NCBI GenBank assembly: GCA_947625105.1
Contig: CANQMZ010000006.1
Coordinates: 1-32,440 of the forward strand
Origin: an uncultured Parasutterella sp.
GTDB lineage: Bacteria > Pseudomonadota > Gammaproteobacteria > Burkholderiales > Burkholderiaceae_F
DNA length: 32,440 nucleotides
Reading direction: 5' to 3'
In this document: positions 1 through 29,757 of the stretch, piece after piece
Layout of the letters: every line of letters begins with the position of its first letter
Position numbering within the stretch: the first letter of the stretch is position 1
The notes under the pieces: model-generated
The model's input: only the letters and a program-made list of their open reading frames with translations
Told to the model about the DNA's origin: nothing
Database searches by the model: none
Made by a program: the position numbers and the translations under genes

Positions 1-99
1 CTCAGAGATGTGAGAGGGGCTTCTGAAGTAGACCTGAGGGTCAATGCGGAGGTGATTAATTTGGATACGGGACAATGTTTCTCTTTTTATGCGAAATAG
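1..99 (+). CDS. C-terminal end of a CDS truncated by the window edge (…LRDVRGASEVDLRVNAEVINLDTGQCFSFYAK*)
   Basis: Open reading frame 1 from the window edge to TAG at 97-99; family not identifiable from 32 residues. Confidence 0.5.
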   Translation, partial: LRDVRGASEVDLRVNAEVINLDTGQCFSFYAK

Positions 100-254
100 A
101 GCAACAGAGGGGTTAGCTCTCTTTTGATTCCACCCTTTTAGTACCGGTGGTCTTGACTCATCATGCAGAAAATGCAACGTTACTTATACCCAAAATTCAG
201 TGACTTTCATGAAAAAATACTTCGGGTCTAGCCATTAATCTCAAACGTTAAGGG

Positions 255-280
255 AAAAAAAAGAATCCTTTCGGATCCCT
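255..280 (-). terminator. Rho-independent terminator of the 37-aa ORF
   Basis: Minus strand reads GGATCC-GAAA-GGATTC followed by TTTTTTTT; 6-bp stem with GNRA loop and U-tract. Confidence 0.75.
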
Positions 281-300
281 TTATTTTTTTTGAATTTTTC

Positions 301-414
301 TTAGCTAAAAAGCTGAGCAACCATCAAGAGTGCACCACTACCAATCACGGACATGACCGAAGAAATGGCAATGATTTTTACAGACTCTTTTTGCTCAATT
401 TCACGATTTTGCAT
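301..414 (-). CDS. Small hydrophobic protein, 37 aa (MQNREIEQKESVKIIAISSVMSVIGSGALLMVAQLFS), predicted single-pass membrane peptide
   Basis: ATG with upstream GGGAG SD (9-nt spacing), near-consensus promoter (477-482/454-459) and a downstream intrinsic terminator; shorter than the ORF-track cutoff. Confidence 0.7.
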   Translation of the reverse strand: MQNREIEQKESVKIIAISSVMSVIGSGALLMVAQLFS

Positions 415-453
415 TAATTGTTTCTCCCAAAACGATTAACTAGAAAGCCGCGC

Positions 454-482
454 ACTATACACGACTAACATTGGAAATTCAA
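454..482 (-). promoter_or_regulatory. Sigma70-type promoter for the 37-aa ORF
   Basis: Minus strand TTGAAT - 17 nt - TATAGT. Confidence 0.7.
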
Positions 483-730
483 TAGGGTTAGGAGAGTTTC
501 GGGGGCTGTTTTGTAACAGAGTGCGAACGGATAAATTTATAAGCTTGCTTTGATGGGCTTTTGATTTTGAAGTTTTCAAGTAAGACATCTAACGTAGAGA
601 AAGGAAGCTCCGCAAAAGTCTAACCAGAAAACAGAGGCATGGTTCTTGATCCTGGCAGCATAAGTGTTGGCTTTTAAGATTTTCTAGGTTTTATAATAAA
701 AACATTGGGTTATTTCTCAAGGAGTTGGTC

Positions 731-2110
731 ATGTTCGGAATAATTGTGACTGTACTTGCAGTCATACTTCTAGGCTATTTTGTTTTGAAGAATTACTACC
801 CGCCAATCATTTTGCTTTTGATTGGTTTGTTTTTATTATTGGTTGCAGGAATTATGGGTACAGATCCTGTGACTGCTAAACAATCTACCCACTTTTTTGG
901 GTTTGACTTGGCAGAGGCTTTTACAAGAACCGTTCAGGGGCGCCTGCCCGGTCTAGGTCTCAACATCATGGCAATCGCGGGCTTTGCCTTTTATATGGAT
1001 AGAATCGGAGCAAGCAAGTCACTGGTCAGATTTTGCGTTCGTCCTTTAAAAGCGATTCATTCGCCATATTTACTGCTCGCTTTGACTTATGTGGTAGGTC
1101 AGTTTATTGCACTTTTCTTTAACTCCGCCGTAGGACTTGGTCTGCTTTTGATGGCCTCAATTTATCCTCTTTTGATTGCACTTGGTGTATCAAGAGTTTC
1201 GGCCGCAGCAGTTATTGCCTCCACATGCTGTCTTGATTTAGGGCCGTCAAGTTCTAATTCTATGAGAGCTGCCGATTTGTGTAATATTGATGTCGTCAGT
1301 TATTTTGTTCAAGGGCAAGGACCAATTGCCCTTTGTACCGTAGCTACTGTTGCTGTTGGCCATTTCTTTGTTCAAAAGTGGTTTGACAAAAGAGAAAAAC
1401 ATGCCGACGACGGTAAGGCAGATTCTGAAAACTTTAATGCTGAAGAGGCCTTGAAGGGTGCGGGGCCATCCTATTACGCCATTCTTCCAATGCTTCCGCT
1501 TTTCTTGTTGGTGATTTTCTCTCCAATGGTTTACGCGAAAGTCAAACTTAGCCTTGTGACCGCTATCGTTGTATCTCTGATTATTTCTCTATTCATTGAT
1601 ATTTTGACTAGAAGGGACTTCAAACTTTGTTGCAAAGATACGCAGGCGATTTTTGAAGGGATGGGCAAGGTTTTCACCTCAACTGTGAGTTTGATTGTTT
1701 GCGCCGAGTTCTTTGCATTGGGGCTTTCCAAGGTCGGAGGTATCACTACAATGATCCAGGCGGCGGCTTCCATGCAAAACGCTGGTCTCATCGTGATGCT
1801 GTTTGTTATGTTACTGATCATGATTGTTGCTTCTGTTGTGACAGGTTCTGGTAACGCTGCGTTTTTTGCTTTCTCGCCATTACTTCCGGAAGCTGCAGCT
1901 TCTGTAGGTATTCCTACCCTGGCTCTTGTGGTTCCCGTTCAACTTTCCGCCGGTATAGCAAGGACCATGAGCCCAATCGCAGGTGTGATCATTGCTGTTG
2001 CGGGTATTTCGGGTTGCACGCCGATTCAGTTGGTCAGGAGAACGATTCCTGTGATGATTTTGGCAATGATCGTTTCAGTAGCTACTAGTTTGATTTTTCT
2101 TGAAGCCTAA
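731..2110 (+). CDS. dcuC: DcuC-family anaerobic C4-dicarboxylate transporter
   Basis: Long hydrophobic ORF with DcuC-like features (…GVSRVSAAAVIASTCCLDLGPSSSNS…, …VTGSGNAAFFAFSPLLPEAAA…); ATG at 731 follows AAGGAG. Confidence 0.8.
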   Translation: MFGIIVTVLAVILLGYFVLKNYYPPIILLLIGLFLLLVAGIMGTDPVTAKQSTHFFGFDLAEAFTRTVQGRLPGLGLNIMAIAGFAFYMDRIGASKSLVRFCVRPLKAIHSPYLLLALTYVVGQFIALFFNSAVGLGLLLMASIYPLLIALGVSRVSAAAVIASTCCLDLGPSSSNSMRAADLCNIDVVSYFVQGQGPIALCTVATVAVGHFFVQKWFDKREKHADDGKADSENFNAEEALKGAGPSYYAILPMLPLFLLVIFSPMVYAKVKLSLVTAIVVSLIISLFIDILTRRDFKLCCKDTQAIFEGMGKVFTSTVSLIVCAEFFALGLSKVGGITTMIQAAASMQNAGLIVMLFVMLLIMIVASVVTGSGNAAFFAFSPLLPEAAASVGIPTLALVVPVQLSAGIARTMSPIAGVIIAVAGISGCTPIQLVRRTIPVMILAMIVSVATSLIFLEA

Positions 2111-2123
2111 TGGAGTCCTTGAT

Positions 2124-3266
2124 ATGGCATATTTAATTCGTTCGGCACATTTATATTCACCTGAAGACAAGGGGATAAAAGATGTTTTAATCGTCAACGA
2201 TAAAGTGGCGGCGATTGGCGAAAACTTAAAGATTGAGCTACCGGGTTTGGAAATTATCAATGCCGAGGGCAAGATCATGACCCCGGGATTGATTGATCAG
2301 CATATTCATGTTACAGGCGGAGGCGGCGAGGGAGGTCCACGAACAAGAACTCCCGAGATTCAGCTCTCAGAGCTTATTGAATGCGGAACCACTAGTTTAG
2401 TAGGTGTTTCTGGGACCGATAGTCTCACTCGATCAATTCCTAATCTCTTGGCAAAGGTTCAAGCTTTGACTGAAGAAGGCGTGACAGCGTGGATGTATAC
2501 CAGTAATTATTCTTATCCTCCGACGACGTTAACCGGTAGTGTCAAAGGCGATTTATTGATGGTCCATGAGTGTCTTGGCGTAAAAATTGCCTTAGGTGAT
2601 CATCGTTCTTCTTTCCCAACATCCCAGCAAGTTATGGATCTTTTGACACAAATTCGGGTAGGAGGAATGATTGCGGGAAAACTCGGCGTCTTACACATTC
2701 ATTTGGGTAACGTTCCAGGGGCCTTTGAGATATTTAAGGAAGTAGTGGCTCGCGGTATGCCTATTCGACATATCAGACCGACTCATTGCGCTAGAGATGC
2801 AAAAGTTTTCGAGCATGCCTTGAATTTCGCTAAGGCTGGTGGTCGAATTGATATTACAACAGGTGGATCGTGTTTCTTGAGTAGTCCGGCCGATGCAGTG
2901 GAAACTGCATGGAAAGAAGGTATTGACGAATCCTTAATTACCATGAGTTCTGACGGGCATGGATCAGTGCCTAGATTTAACGATAAGGGTGAAATGATCG
3001 GCCTCGGAGTCGGCGGCGTTGCCTGCAATCTCAGAGACGCAAGGAAACTGTTGGAGCGCGGTTACAAACCAGAAAAAGTTCTTCCTCTCCTGACCCGAAA
3101 CGTTGCCAAGGGCCTAGAGCTGAAAGGCAAAGGAGAAGTGATTATCGGAAACAGTGCAGATGTATGCATATTTGACCAAGACTGGCAACTGCAAGATGTC
3201 ATTTCTAAAGGGGTCGTCATGATGAAAGACAAACAGCTACTCGTCAAAGGAACCTTTGAACAATAG
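2124..3266 (+). CDS. iadA: Isoaspartyl dipeptidase (beta-aspartyl-peptidase)
   Basis: Amidohydrolase motifs: PGLIDQHIHVTGGGGEGGP, RHIRPTHCARD, TMSSDGHGS; internal ATG at 2124 preferred. Confidence 0.88.
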   Translation: MAYLIRSAHLYSPEDKGIKDVLIVNDKVAAIGENLKIELPGLEIINAEGKIMTPGLIDQHIHVTGGGGEGGPRTRTPEIQLSELIECGTTSLVGVSGTDSLTRSIPNLLAKVQALTEEGVTAWMYTSNYSYPPTTLTGSVKGDLLMVHECLGVKIALGDHRSSFPTSQQVMDLLTQIRVGGMIAGKLGVLHIHLGNVPGAFEIFKEVVARGMPIRHIRPTHCARDAKVFEHALNFAKAGGRIDITTGGSCFLSSPADAVETAWKEGIDESLITMSSDGHGSVPRFNDKGEMIGLGVGGVACNLRDARKLLERGYKPEKVLPLLTRNVAKGLELKGKGEVIIGNSADVCIFDQDWQLQDVISKGVVMMKDKQLLVKGTFEQ

Positions 3267-3280
3267 CAACCTACTTTAAA

Positions 3281-3320
3281 CACCCCAATCCTAAAGTCAC
3301 TAGCGCTCGGGATTGGGGTG
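3281..3320 (+). terminator. Hairpin terminator after iadA
   Basis: CACCCCAATCC…GGATTGGGGTG, 11-bp inverted repeat followed by ATTTATT. Confidence 0.65.
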
Positions 3321-3336
3321 ATTTATTCAGAATTCA

Positions 3337-3411
3337 TGGCAGCCCCAACAGGAATCGAACCTGTACCTCAGTCTTAGGAGGACCACGTTGTATCCATTCA
3401 ACTATGGGGCC
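3337..3411 (-). tRNA. tRNA-Arg (anticodon CCT)
   Basis: Minus strand GGCCCCATAGTTGAATGGATACAACGTGGTCCTCCTAAGACTGAGGTACAGGTTCGATTCCTGTTGGGGCTGCCA; cloverleaf, TTCGATTC T-loop, encoded CCA, loop CTCCTAA. Confidence 0.95.
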
Positions 3412-9232: not shown

Positions 9233-9637
9233 TTAGCAGTTTTCGGTTTGCGAACCTATCGTACCGGCTCTGACACCAAGACTGGCCAACAAAATTCCAC
9301 CAGTTAGTGTCAGGAAGGTGTACATCCCGGCGGATAAAACTTTTTGTGCTTCAAGTAAAACCGATGCCTCATAGACGAACGATGAAAAGCTTGTAAAACT
9401 GCCAAGGAAGCCAGTTCCGAGCAAAAGAAAGATTAGTCCTGCATGCCTGTTTTTTCTGTTAAGCGAGACCTTTTGACTCACAAAACCTAGTACGAGGGAC
9501 CCTATCCAGTTGATTAACATTAACACTGGTGGAAAAGAAAGATCGGGTGCAAACGTGATAGTTAGCAGAAAAATCCGACTGAGAGTTCCTAAAAAACCTC
9601 CCAACATAACGGCAAATATTTCCTGGAAATTTTTCAT
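9233..9637 (-). CDS. crcB: Fluc/CrcB-family fluoride channel subunit (copy 1)
   Basis: GTLSRIF, INWIGSLVLGF, GFLGSFTSFSSF; about 134 aa, four TM segments. Confidence 0.85.
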   Translation of the reverse strand: MKNFQEIFAVMLGGFLGTLSRIFLLTITFAPDLSFPPVLMLINWIGSLVLGFVSQKVSLNRKNRHAGLIFLLLGTGFLGSFTSFSSFVYEASVLLEAQKVLSAGMYTFLTLTGGILLASLGVRAGTIGSQTENC

Positions 9638-9640
9638 TGC

Positions 9641-9991
9641 CTAGTACAACAAAGAACCGAAGAAAAAAAATGAAAAACAAAAGGCAAGATTAAAAAAAAT
9701 TTCTTTCAAGGCTTTTCCATAATTTAGTCTGCCAAAGGCAACACTGACTGATACAGCAAACGTAGAAAACGTTGAGAATGCTCCAAGAAAACCTTGAGTG
9801 ATAATCACTGTGAGAGAGCTTCCCGATGGCGCAATGCTGATTGCTATTCCTAATAGTAGGCAACCCAAGCTATTGACCAACAGGGTTCCCGCATCAAAGT
9901 TTTTGACCTTACTAATTATTAACAGCGAAAGTAGCCATCTACATAGAGCACCTAGTGCCCCAGCCAGGCCAATCAACAAAAATTGTGTCAC
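9641..9991 (-). CDS. crcB: Fluc/CrcB-family fluoride channel subunit (copy 2)
   Basis: GALCRW, VNSLGCLLLGI, GFLGAFSTFSTF; GTG start; separated from copy 1 by only 3 nt. Confidence 0.85.
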   Translation of the reverse strand: MTQFLLIGLAGALGALCRWLLSLLIISKVKNFDAGTLLVNSLGCLLLGIAISIAPSGSSLTVIITQGFLGAFSTFSTFAVSVSVAFGRLNYGKALKEIFFNLAFCFSFFFFGSLLY

Positions 9992-24179: not shown

Positions 24180-25127
24180 ATGCCTGCCAGTATTAAAAAA
24201 TCGCTTTTATTGTTATCCGTAACAGCTTGTTTTGGTGTTGGGTTGGCTTTGCCAGACGGTTTGAGTGCCTTCACTGAGGCCAAGGCTGCCGATTCTCAGA
24301 TGGCTTCCCAAGTAGTTAAAGCCAAAGTCAAGGAGGTTTTGAGTGGGGACACGGTGATTATTTCGAGCCCGAGTGGGACTCAGAAGATTTCTCTTATGGG
24401 AGTTCAAGCACCGGATGTGAATTTACCTGCCGGAATCAAGAGTAAAGAATCATTGCAACAACTCTTAGCCAAGGGTAATAACGAACTGATGATCCAACAC
24501 CAGGTAACAGACAAGTGGGGACGTTTCATTGGTCGTCTACTTGGTTCGGATATGGACATCAATTTACAGCAATTGAAGGACGGTCATGCGTGGACGACTA
24601 ATAAGATTTTGGAATTCAATACCCCAGAGGAGCAGACTTTGTATCAGAAGATGCAGGAGGAGGCTCGTACTCTGAATAAGGGGCTGTGGGCAGGAGCACG
24701 CAATACGGATAAGAACGTTATGACAGTAGGTGCCCTGCATGTTATTAGTGGAGATTCCATTGTCGTCTCTTCCCCGTCTGGTATCTCAGTGGTCAGGATG
24801 GTCGGAATCAAAGCCCCCTCAATGAAGCAGCCAGCGGGAGAGGCTAGCAGAGCCTCCTTGTCCGAGGCCCTTGAAAAGGGGAACGGTCATTTGGACGTCT
24901 ATTACAAAGTCAGAGATAAGTGGGGTCGCTACATTGGCAAGATCGTTTCAGAGGGAATGGATCTGAATCTGCATCAAATTAAAAACGGTCAAGCATGGCT
25001 CTATCAAGAGTTCAAGAAGGACATCGCCCCTTCGGATTTGAGTTTGTATGAAAAAGTTCAACAGGAAGCTAAAACTCTAAATAAAGGAGTTTGGAAAGAT
25101 CCTCAAGCTCAAAAGCAACTTTATTGA
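24180..25127 (+). CDS. Exported protein with two degenerate SNase (thermonuclease-like) domains
   Basis: Signal-peptide-like N-terminus; two repeats VxSGD(T/S)…G(V/I)xAP…KWGR(F/Y)IG…NL(Q/H)Q(L/I)K(D/N)G(H/Q)AW…TLNKG(L/V)W. Confidence 0.85.
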   Translation: MPASIKKSLLLLSVTACFGVGLALPDGLSAFTEAKAADSQMASQVVKAKVKEVLSGDTVIISSPSGTQKISLMGVQAPDVNLPAGIKSKESLQQLLAKGNNELMIQHQVTDKWGRFIGRLLGSDMDINLQQLKDGHAWTTNKILEFNTPEEQTLYQKMQEEARTLNKGLWAGARNTDKNVMTVGALHVISGDSIVVSSPSGISVVRMVGIKAPSMKQPAGEASRASLSEALEKGNGHLDVYYKVRDKWGRYIGKIVSEGMDLNLHQIKNGQAWLYQEFKKDIAPSDLSLYEKVQQEAKTLNKGVWKDPQAQKQLY

Positions 25128-25152
25128 TTAAACTTCTACATCAATGACTGTG

Positions 25153-25175
25153 CAAAGCGGCCGTTGGCCGCTTTG
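25153..25175. repeat. Perfect palindromic hairpin CAAAGCGGCC-GTT-GGCCGCTTTG
   Basis: 10-bp perfect inverted repeat between the two SNase genes; no T-tract directly after it. Confidence 0.7.
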
Positions 25176-25214
25176 TCAATAAGAAGTTAGAACCTCCTTA
25201 TGGAGATCAAATTG

Positions 25215-25781
25215 ATGCAGAAGCGTTACAACTATAAAAGCACTCTTTTCTGGCTCGTCTTGGCTATCATCGTCCTGTTGGTAGCATGGTTCTTTCAGGG
25301 GACGGATCCGTCTCAAAACTCTCGATCTTCCACGGGGAAGAAGGAAGTGAATGCAAAGGTGGTCCGGATCTCTGATGGAGATACTTTTGAGGTGATTTTT
25401 GACGGGAAAAAGGAAAAAAAGAGGATCCGGATGTTGGCAATAGACGCTCCAGAACTAAAGATGAAAGGAGGTGCAGAAAGTAAAAAGTCATTAACCGATC
25501 TGATAAAGAAATGTGATAACCGTGTTTTCGTGCAGCAGGCCTATGAAGACCAGTACAAGCGGGTCGTAGGAAAAGTTCTCTGTGACGGACAGGATTTAAA
25601 TCTTGAGCAAATCAAAAATGGTCATGCATGGCTTTATGAGAGGCATCGCAAGGATGCGTTCGCCGGAGACGGAACAAAGTATGCCGAAGCCCAAAAATAC
25701 GCAAAAGAGCATAATTTGGGTCTTTGGAAAGAAAAAAATCCCAAGGCTCCTTGGGAATGGAGAAAAGAAAATCCCCGGTAG
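25215..25781 (+). CDS. Membrane-anchored SNase/thermonuclease family protein with intact catalytic motifs
   Basis: N-terminal TM; SDGDTFEVIF, RIRMLAIDAPEL, DQYKRVVGKV; ATG at 25215 with GGAG 9 nt upstream. Confidence 0.85.
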   Translation: MQKRYNYKSTLFWLVLAIIVLLVAWFFQGTDPSQNSRSSTGKKEVNAKVVRISDGDTFEVIFDGKKEKKRIRMLAIDAPELKMKGGAESKKSLTDLIKKCDNRVFVQQAYEDQYKRVVGKVLCDGQDLNLEQIKNGHAWLYERHRKDAFAGDGTKYAEAQKYAKEHNLGLWKEKNPKAPWEWRKENPR

Positions 25782-28021: not shown

Positions 28022-28579
28022 TTACATGACTCTGTTGCGATATTCATCTGTACGAGTGTCGATCTCAATCTTATCGCCGGTTTTCACAAAAGCAGGGACC
28101 TGAATGATATGTCCAGTTGCAAGTTTTGCTGGTTTCATGACCTTACCGGAAGTATCTCCCTTGACCGCAGGTTCTGTGTAGATGATTTCCCTTGTAAGGA
28201 TGGTCGGTAGCTCAATGGAAATGGCCTTTCCGTTGTAAAGAACGACCTCTGCTTTCATACCGTCTTCAAGATATTTGAGCACATCTTCCATAACCTCGGC
28301 TTCAACCTCGTACTGGTTGTACTCGTCATCCATCCAAACGTAGAGAGGATCAGCAAAGTAGGAATAAGAAACTTCTTTTTTATCGAGGATGATATCGTCG
28401 AAGCGATCATCGGCGCGATAAACAGTCTCTGTTCCGCTATTGGAAAGGAGATTCTTCATCTTAAGCTTAACAGTGGAGGCGCCGCGACCGCCTTTGCTGT
28501 ACTCTGACTTTAAAATAACCATGGGTTTGTCATCGACCATGACAACATTGCCCACTCTAAGTTCTTGTGCTGTTTTCAT
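28022..28579 (-). CDS. efp: Elongation factor P (Arg32 type)
   Basis: [11 protein letters not shown]…[23 protein letters not shown] at 28579 preferred. Confidence 0.96.
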
Positions 28580-28650
28580 AATTACTTTTGGTTGGTTAAT
28601 GTTCAAAAGCCGTCAGGCTCCTGGGAACACGAAAATTCAAAACAATCCGA

Positions 28651-29757
28651 TTATTTTAGCTTGTAATTAATAAAGTTGCACAAATTATCGATGAGAGATT
28701 TGTTTTTGAGCAGCTGTGTCCTCCAGGAGAGCATATCGGCGGTTAACTTTTGCAGGGATTGAATCATGGCTGGCAGACTTTCACACAAGCTTGAGGGGTT
28801 GTTATTGAAATCTAGGTTTGCCTTTACCCATGTGTTTGCTTTTTGTCCGAGAAATGGCGCAATGCGATTCAAAAAAGCTTCAAGTTTCTTTATATGAACA
28901 TCGTCTTTTTGGGGATAGATATTCCAAATAAAAGGTTTGGCGGCCAATTGTGCCCGGACGAAAGAATCTTCACCTCGCACGATTAGCAGATCTGAGAAAA
29001 AGAGAAAATTATCAAATTTTTCTTGATCGACCATCGGGATAGAAACAAAGGAAAGATTTTGGTGTGGTTTGTCTCCAAGGAGCTCAATAATTTGTTCGGA
29101 GGCTTCGCCTGGACAAAGCAGAAGCTGAATTTTTTTTTGACTTTTTTCTAATGCCTCAATCAAGGGGCCTAAGGGAGCGGTGGGATAACAGAAGATGAGG
29201 ACTAATAGTTTTGAAGGGTCGCAATTAAAGGAAGATAGGAAGTTTTCTCGTTGCCGGGAATAGTATTTTTGTCTATCTAGCAGGTCATGCTCGATGATTA
29301 CTCCCCCCGTTTTATCAGTAAAGCCTGGAAAAAAGAAATATTTTGGGATACCAAATTTTGGATGTGGAGATGGTAACAGATGACAACCTTCCACCCAACT
29401 CTCTGCGGAAAGATATTCAATGTTTATCCAAAGGGGAGTGGGCAGCGCTGAACATAGCTTTTCTTCAAACCTTTCGGGAAGTCGACAACCAAATGTTTCA
29501 ATAACCACAGGAGAAACATCTTCTGAGAGACAGTCATTCCAGTACCTTACCTGGATTTTGTTTTCGATTAGCTGAGGCAGTTGCTCAGCATTTAGTTGCT
29601 TGACAAAAGCGGACAATGTCTGAGGCTTATTGATGAACAGACGGACTTTCAGTTGTCTTTCAAAAGCCAAGGCTTTCGCAATGCGCCAAGCAACTCCGGC
29701 GTCTCCGTAGTTATCAATGACATCGCAGAAGAGGTCAATATCAAAATTCGGTTTCAT
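28651..29757 (-). CDS. earP: EF-P arginine rhamnosyltransferase
   Basis: DLFCDVIDNYGDAGVAWRIAKAL, PLWINIEYLSAESWVEGCHLLPSPHP, FFPGFTDKTGG; adjacent to Arg32-type efp. Confidence 0.93.
   Translation of the reverse strand: MKPNFDIDLFCDVIDNYGDAGVAWRIAKALAFERQLKVRLFINKPQTLSAFVKQLNAEQLPQLIENKIQVRYWNDCLSEDVSPVVIETFGCRLPERFEEKLCSALPTPLWINIEYLSAESWVEGCHLLPSPHPKFGIPKYFFFPGFTDKTGGVIIEHDLLDRQKYYSRQRENFLSSFNCDPSKLLVLIFCYPTAPLGPLIEALEKSQKKIQLLLCPGEASEQIIELLGDKPHQNLSFVSIPMVDQEKFDNFLFFSDLLIVRGEDSFVRAQLAAKPFIWNIYPQKDDVHIKKLEAFLNRIAPFLGQKANTWVKANLDFNNNPSSLCESLPAMIQSLQKLTADMLSWRTQLLKNKSLIDNLCNFINYKLK

Follow-up and report, generated by a model that had tools for sequence, protein, structure and literature searches.

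A conserved 37-codon gene encoding a predicted single-pass membrane microprotein in Parasutterella and Turicimonas

The analysed window, a 32,440-nt stretch of contig CANQMZ010000006.1 from an uncultured Parasutterella sp., carries on its minus strand a small gene of 114 nt between its left end, which is also the left end of the contig, and a dcuC-type transporter gene. Direct reading of the sequence around this gene revealed a complete set of expression signals, listed in Table 1, and the promoter and terminator were also recovered by a scanner. Transcription probably starts at about positions 447-445 and would yield a separate mRNA of about 190 nt, driven by a promoter of the housekeeping type. 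At the extreme left of the window, positions 1-99 (+) may hold the C-terminal end of an open reading frame (ORF) cut by the contig end (...VDLRVNAEVINLDTGQCFSFYAK).

Table 1. Features of the small gene and its transcription unit, in window coordinates.
Feature	Position	Strand	Evidence
-35 element TTGAAT	482-477	-	Direct sequence reading and scan
-10 element TATAGT, after a 17-bp spacer	459-454	-	Direct reading and scan
Sigma-70-type promoter TTGAAT-17-TATAGT	454..482	-	Sequence, scanner, five-species comparison
G/C-only discriminator GCGCGGC, directly 3' of the -10 element	447..453	-	Base composition
Shine-Dalgarno GGGAG, 9 nt ahead of ATG	424..428	-	Sequence
ATG start codon	414-412	-	Direct reading
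Small gene, 37 aa, MQNREIEQKESVKIIAISSVMSVIGSGALLMVAQLFS	301..414 (stop included)	-	Sequence, orthologues, substitution tests
TAA stop codon	303-301	-	Direct reading
Intrinsic terminator: 10-bp stem AAAGGGATCC / GGATTCTTTT with GAAA tetraloop (282-259), T-tract to about 255	255..282	-	Sequence and scan

Promoter-like and terminator-like sites occur in this AT-rich region at numbers near chance (5 found against 3.2 expected and 4 found against 2.5 expected, respectively). The full arrangement, defined as an ATG-initiated ORF of 30-70 codons with a Shine-Dalgarno site, a hydrophobic segment, a promoter upstream and a terminator downstream, was not reproduced in any of 1500 dinucleotide shuffles of window positions 100-733; a Shine-Dalgarno site and hydrophobic segment alone were found in 18 of these shuffles, and in a single one when the promoter was added. 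The reality of the gene is settled by its conservation in four other species. The original prediction had described a promoter, a GGGAG Shine-Dalgarno site, a 37-aa ORF and a GNRA-loop terminator, an anatomy that proved accurate, with the same elements read directly here and the scanner in agreement on promoter and terminator. It had also placed the gene below standard gene-calling limits, which is inexact and overstated: the default minimum gene length of Prodigal is 90 nt, so that a gene of this size is easily missed without formally falling under the limit. The case illustrates that a 37-codon gene can be discovered from its sequence anatomy alone and then confirmed by comparison.

A search of 101 relatives identified intact orthologues of 36-37 aa, 44-62% identical, in Parasutterella excrementihominis (strain YIT 11859), P. 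muris (NM82_D38), Turicimonas muris (YL45) and one further member of the Turicimonas genus group, that is, in two genomes of the same genus and two of another; the window itself derives from a third Parasutterella species, distinct from the first two. The gene is present in single copy. The five proteins align without internal gaps, and the frameshifts and internal stops that the original prediction had named as evidence against a coding function are absent from all four orthologues. Substitutions among the orthologues are mostly synonymous or conservative. Between the window and P. excrementihominis, the 39 nucleotide differences fall 10, 4 and 25 at codon positions 1, 2 and 3, and the encoded changes sum to a BLOSUM score of 111 against 44 expected, a value not equalled in 5000 randomisations. 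In all ten pairs the BLOSUM sum exceeded that obtained by random placement of the same substitutions (P <= 0.002), and pairs between genera display the same substitution pattern as pairs within a genus. Synonymous divergence is saturated or nearly so in most pairs, which deprives an exact dN/dS of meaning; the randomisation is independent of dS. Seven residues (M1, E7, K13, A16, S18, S22 and S26) are invariant across the five proteins. The comparative pattern of the sequences indicates, with near certainty, a genuine protein-coding gene under purifying selection.

A profile built from the five members raised all of them to E-values of about 1e-21, with no convincing match among the family's remaining 62 genomes. 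Weak matches inspected in other genomes of the family and order (L012-L016, L036, L040-L051) turned out to be fragments of longer reading frames, or frames without any relation, rather than small genes, and the weak matches inspected among 399 genomes drawn from the order Burkholderiales were all unrelated frames. Among close relatives within the family, the syntenic positions (the serB locus and the parE locus) showed no similar small ORF with a Shine-Dalgarno site and hydrophobic segment. The nearest other genera as judged by SerB are represented by G006 (80%) and G016 (61%), whose genomes are 80% and 84% complete, so that absence of the gene there is not proven. No homologue was found in phages, plasmids or viral contigs (IMG/VR), and no named family or solved structure in Pfam, NCBIfam, PHROGs, PADLOC or PDB matches; even at E = 10, the only Pfam or NCBIfam match of the five members was that of one member to Antimicrobial17 (E = 0.17). 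A literature search on small proteins of Parasutterella returned nothing relevant, and it turned up no expression data for the species that carry the gene. As far as these searches reach, the proteins form a microprotein family restricted to Parasutterella and Turicimonas; the family is new, and its kind, the single-pass membrane microprotein, is already known.

The promoter and Shine-Dalgarno site are conserved together with the protein. All five species carry a -35/-10 pair with exactly 17-bp spacing located 29-43 nt before the start codon, four of these promoters having been found independently by the scanner and the fifth (L005) placed by eye. The Shine-Dalgarno sites of the orthologues read AGGAGG, AGGAGGGG, AGGAGG and GAGAGG. 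In the other four species the gene is likewise followed by a stem-loop, whose sequence differs from one species to the next; these stem-loops were read by eye, the scanner confirming the terminators of the window and of L005, and they constitute weaker evidence than the promoters. The self-contained transcription unit originally proposed is thus upheld by five loci that each have their own 17-bp-spaced promoter and Shine-Dalgarno site, and their sequences make it very probable that the gene is transcribed independently of its neighbours. Across the five species, the conserved promoter and Shine-Dalgarno site and the selection at codon level make for unusually clean comparative evidence.

The seven bases following the -10 element include 7, 5, 6, 6 and 6 G or C in the five species, against a background of 25-43% G+C in the upstream DNA, and such G/C-rich discriminators are a feature of stringently controlled (ppGpp/DksA-repressed) promoters. 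As the stringent response generally represses promoters of this kind (PMC6013443), the base composition suggests that the small gene may be highly expressed during fast growth and repressed by ppGpp, and growth-rate or stringent control of its promoter is a possibility to which we give slightly less than even weight.

The chromosomal surroundings of the gene differ between the two genera. In Parasutterella it sits no more than a few kb from tRNA-Arg(CCT) and parE, with varying distances and orientations: it converges on the tRNA gene in P. muris, is found upstream of it in the same orientation in P. excrementihominis, and is separated from it in the window by dcuC and an amidohydrolase gene. 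These two genes (window 734-3411), encoding a dcuC-family transporter and an amidohydrolase resembling isoaspartyl dipeptidase, are both missing from the corresponding spot in P. muris, and the stretch adjoining the tRNA gene therefore varies between species. In Turicimonas the small gene is located between serB and a helicase gene, and it is absent from the tRNA-Arg-parE spot of T. muris. No neighbouring gene is common to the Parasutterella and Turicimonas loci, and no flanking repeats that could explain a relocation were found. The promoter, short leader and Shine-Dalgarno site have been kept although the gene sits at unrelated sites in the two genera.

All five proteins, at 36-37 aa, have the dimensions of small membrane proteins of the single-pass type, which do not exceed about 50 aa and contain a single hydrophobic helix of 18-25 residues. 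Residues 1-13 are charged, with three basic and three acidic residues in the window protein, and residues 14-36, approximately, are hydrophobic and predicted to form a transmembrane helix, with a Kyte-Doolittle 19-residue maximum of 1.88-2.29 across the five proteins. A structure model returned one helix spanning residues 3-36 (mean pLDDT 83), which for a lone helix conveys little beyond secondary structure. The charged N-terminus and hydrophobic helix of the original prediction are supported by the hydropathy of all five proteins and by this model, and the 37-aa product is predicted, with high confidence, to be a single-pass membrane protein. Taken with the orthologues and the selection on them, this largely supports the initial reading, namely a genuine gene whose product is a single-pass membrane microprotein. 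The N-terminus is most likely cytoplasmic because the C-terminus ends with the helix; we consider an N-in/C-out orientation likely, in which a short charged N-terminus would lie in the cytoplasm and the C-terminus would be the end of the inner-membrane helix. The invariant serines S18, S22 and S26 are spaced by four residues, a spacing that in a membrane helix suggests helix packing. The conserved small residues do not significantly define one face of the helix in five sequences (conservation moment P = 0.15; small-residue moment P = 0.30), and a serine-lined face was dropped as a supported interface.

Several described proteins share this architecture. AcrZ of E. coli (49 aa) is likewise a single-helix inner-membrane microprotein, and acrZ is a small gene of its own that does not adjoin those encoding its partner. 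AcrZ binds AcrB (PMC10710835, PMC7267776); its sequence is unrelated by Pfam scan, and the small protein described here lacks a C-terminal tail after the helix. MgtS, MgtR and MgtU are similarly single-pass proteins of about 30 aa, which act as modulators of transporters or of transporter turnover (PMC10710835), but they have no sequence match to the present family, nor did the small gene show linkage to any magnesium transporter or regulon. Since known small single-helix proteins bind and modulate transporters or enzymes (PMC10710835), a role as accessory subunit or regulator of a larger membrane protein is the function we favour, by analogy and with moderate confidence. The helix would pack against a larger integral membrane protein, either a transporter or a respiratory complex, and alter its stability or activity, much as AcrZ, MgtS, MgtR and CydX act on their partners. 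Counting against this function are the lack of any neighbour common to both genera, the database searches that matched no family, and the non-significant helix-face tests on five sequences.

Four other explanations were weighed against this subunit-or-regulator function. A non-coding small RNA in which the ORF is incidental, an outcome the original prediction had set against itself, is extremely improbable. A stand-alone transcript of this size (about 190 nt), bounded by its own promoter and terminator, would suit such an RNA, and in the window the full-length transcript of the gene folds better than its shuffles (z = -3.26). Without the terminator, however, the value is reduced to -1.90, and leader plus ORF of the orthologues folds no better than shuffles (z = 0.19, -0.25, -0.64 and 0.00); terminators differ in sequence between species, Rfam yields no match, and the substitutions follow a coding pattern. 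It is the protein, and not the structure of the mRNA, that is conserved. The size and single hydrophobic helix of the product would also fit a type I toxin like TisB, DinQ or Hok, a membrane-depolarising hydrophobic peptide silenced by an antisense RNA, and a weak antisense promoter-like site at ORF position 67-40 (9 of 12 matching positions in P. excrementihominis and 10 of 12 in P. muris) could direct an antisense transcript across the start codon. In the three remaining species this site scores only 8, 8 and 7 of 12, its resemblance to a promoter follows from the conserved codons, and no conserved antisense promoter over the small-gene mRNA was found across the five species. Many type I toxin mRNAs carry a long inhibitory leader, whereas only 29-43 nt follow the -10 element here, with a good Shine-Dalgarno site. 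This short, well-equipped leader and the lack of a consistent antisense promoter make a type I toxin unlikely, and the single copy and absence from phages and plasmids also argue against it.

A peptide acting on the bilayer or the proton-motive force under general membrane stress, with no single partner, would likewise account for a lone helix with no obvious partner, and E. coli YohP (27 aa), another tiny single-pass membrane protein, for which such an action has been proposed, has been reported to lower membrane fluidity and membrane potential and has been linked to the stringent response (PMC12719787). Conservation here is more detailed than a purely bilayer-acting peptide should need, including invariant polar residues, and YohP is by its description a stationary-phase and starvation protein (PMC12719787), as opposed to the growth-like promoter of the small gene; we regard this explanation as rather unlikely, if less so than a toxin. 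Somewhat less probable than either is that the protein represents a known small respiratory or transport subunit (CydX, KdpF, AcrZ and similar) in diverged form. Such subunits are similar in size and topology class and are often missed in annotation, but the database searches described above gave no match to them, the comparison with KdpF and AcrZ consisting of the Pfam scan. CydX (YbgT_YccB, PF08173), a membrane-enzyme subunit, resembles the predicted product in being small and single-helix; identity with it was rejected, as the window protein does not match PF08173 and P. excrementihominis has a different, CydX-like ORF behind cydB, which excludes the CydX role in that species. The latter ORF (L112:1501-1605, MTYLAWICAVLFMICLSALATLGFDF...) lies directly after cydB, and a similar one is present in P. 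muris (L114:1501-1605). They score 17.8 and 12.2 bits, respectively, against a Pfam cut-off of 26.2 for PF08173, and are probably diverged cydX genes.

In its most complete form, the subunit-or-regulator reading would describe an undescribed lineage-specific family made in step with growth rate, whose members serve a central membrane machine of Parasutterella and Turicimonas and whose own promoter was kept through relocation between the genera; this combined proposal is tentative, and we hold it to be less likely than not by a clear measure. The gene adds a small-protein family to common and poorly studied gut Burkholderiales, and the availability of P. excrementihominis and T. muris YL45 in culture makes its translation, location and partner directly testable. 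Inspection by eye of the remainder of the window revealed three further gene pairs. Positions 9233-9991 (-) hold two adjacent genes resembling a CrcB/Fluc fluoride-channel subunit pair, and positions 24180-25781 (+) a neighbouring pair with repeats that look thermonuclease-like (SNase), of which the first gene seems to encode two SNase domains in tandem. At positions 28022-29757 (-), an efp-like gene lies beside a gene resembling earP, a pair for arginine rhamnosylation of EF-P.
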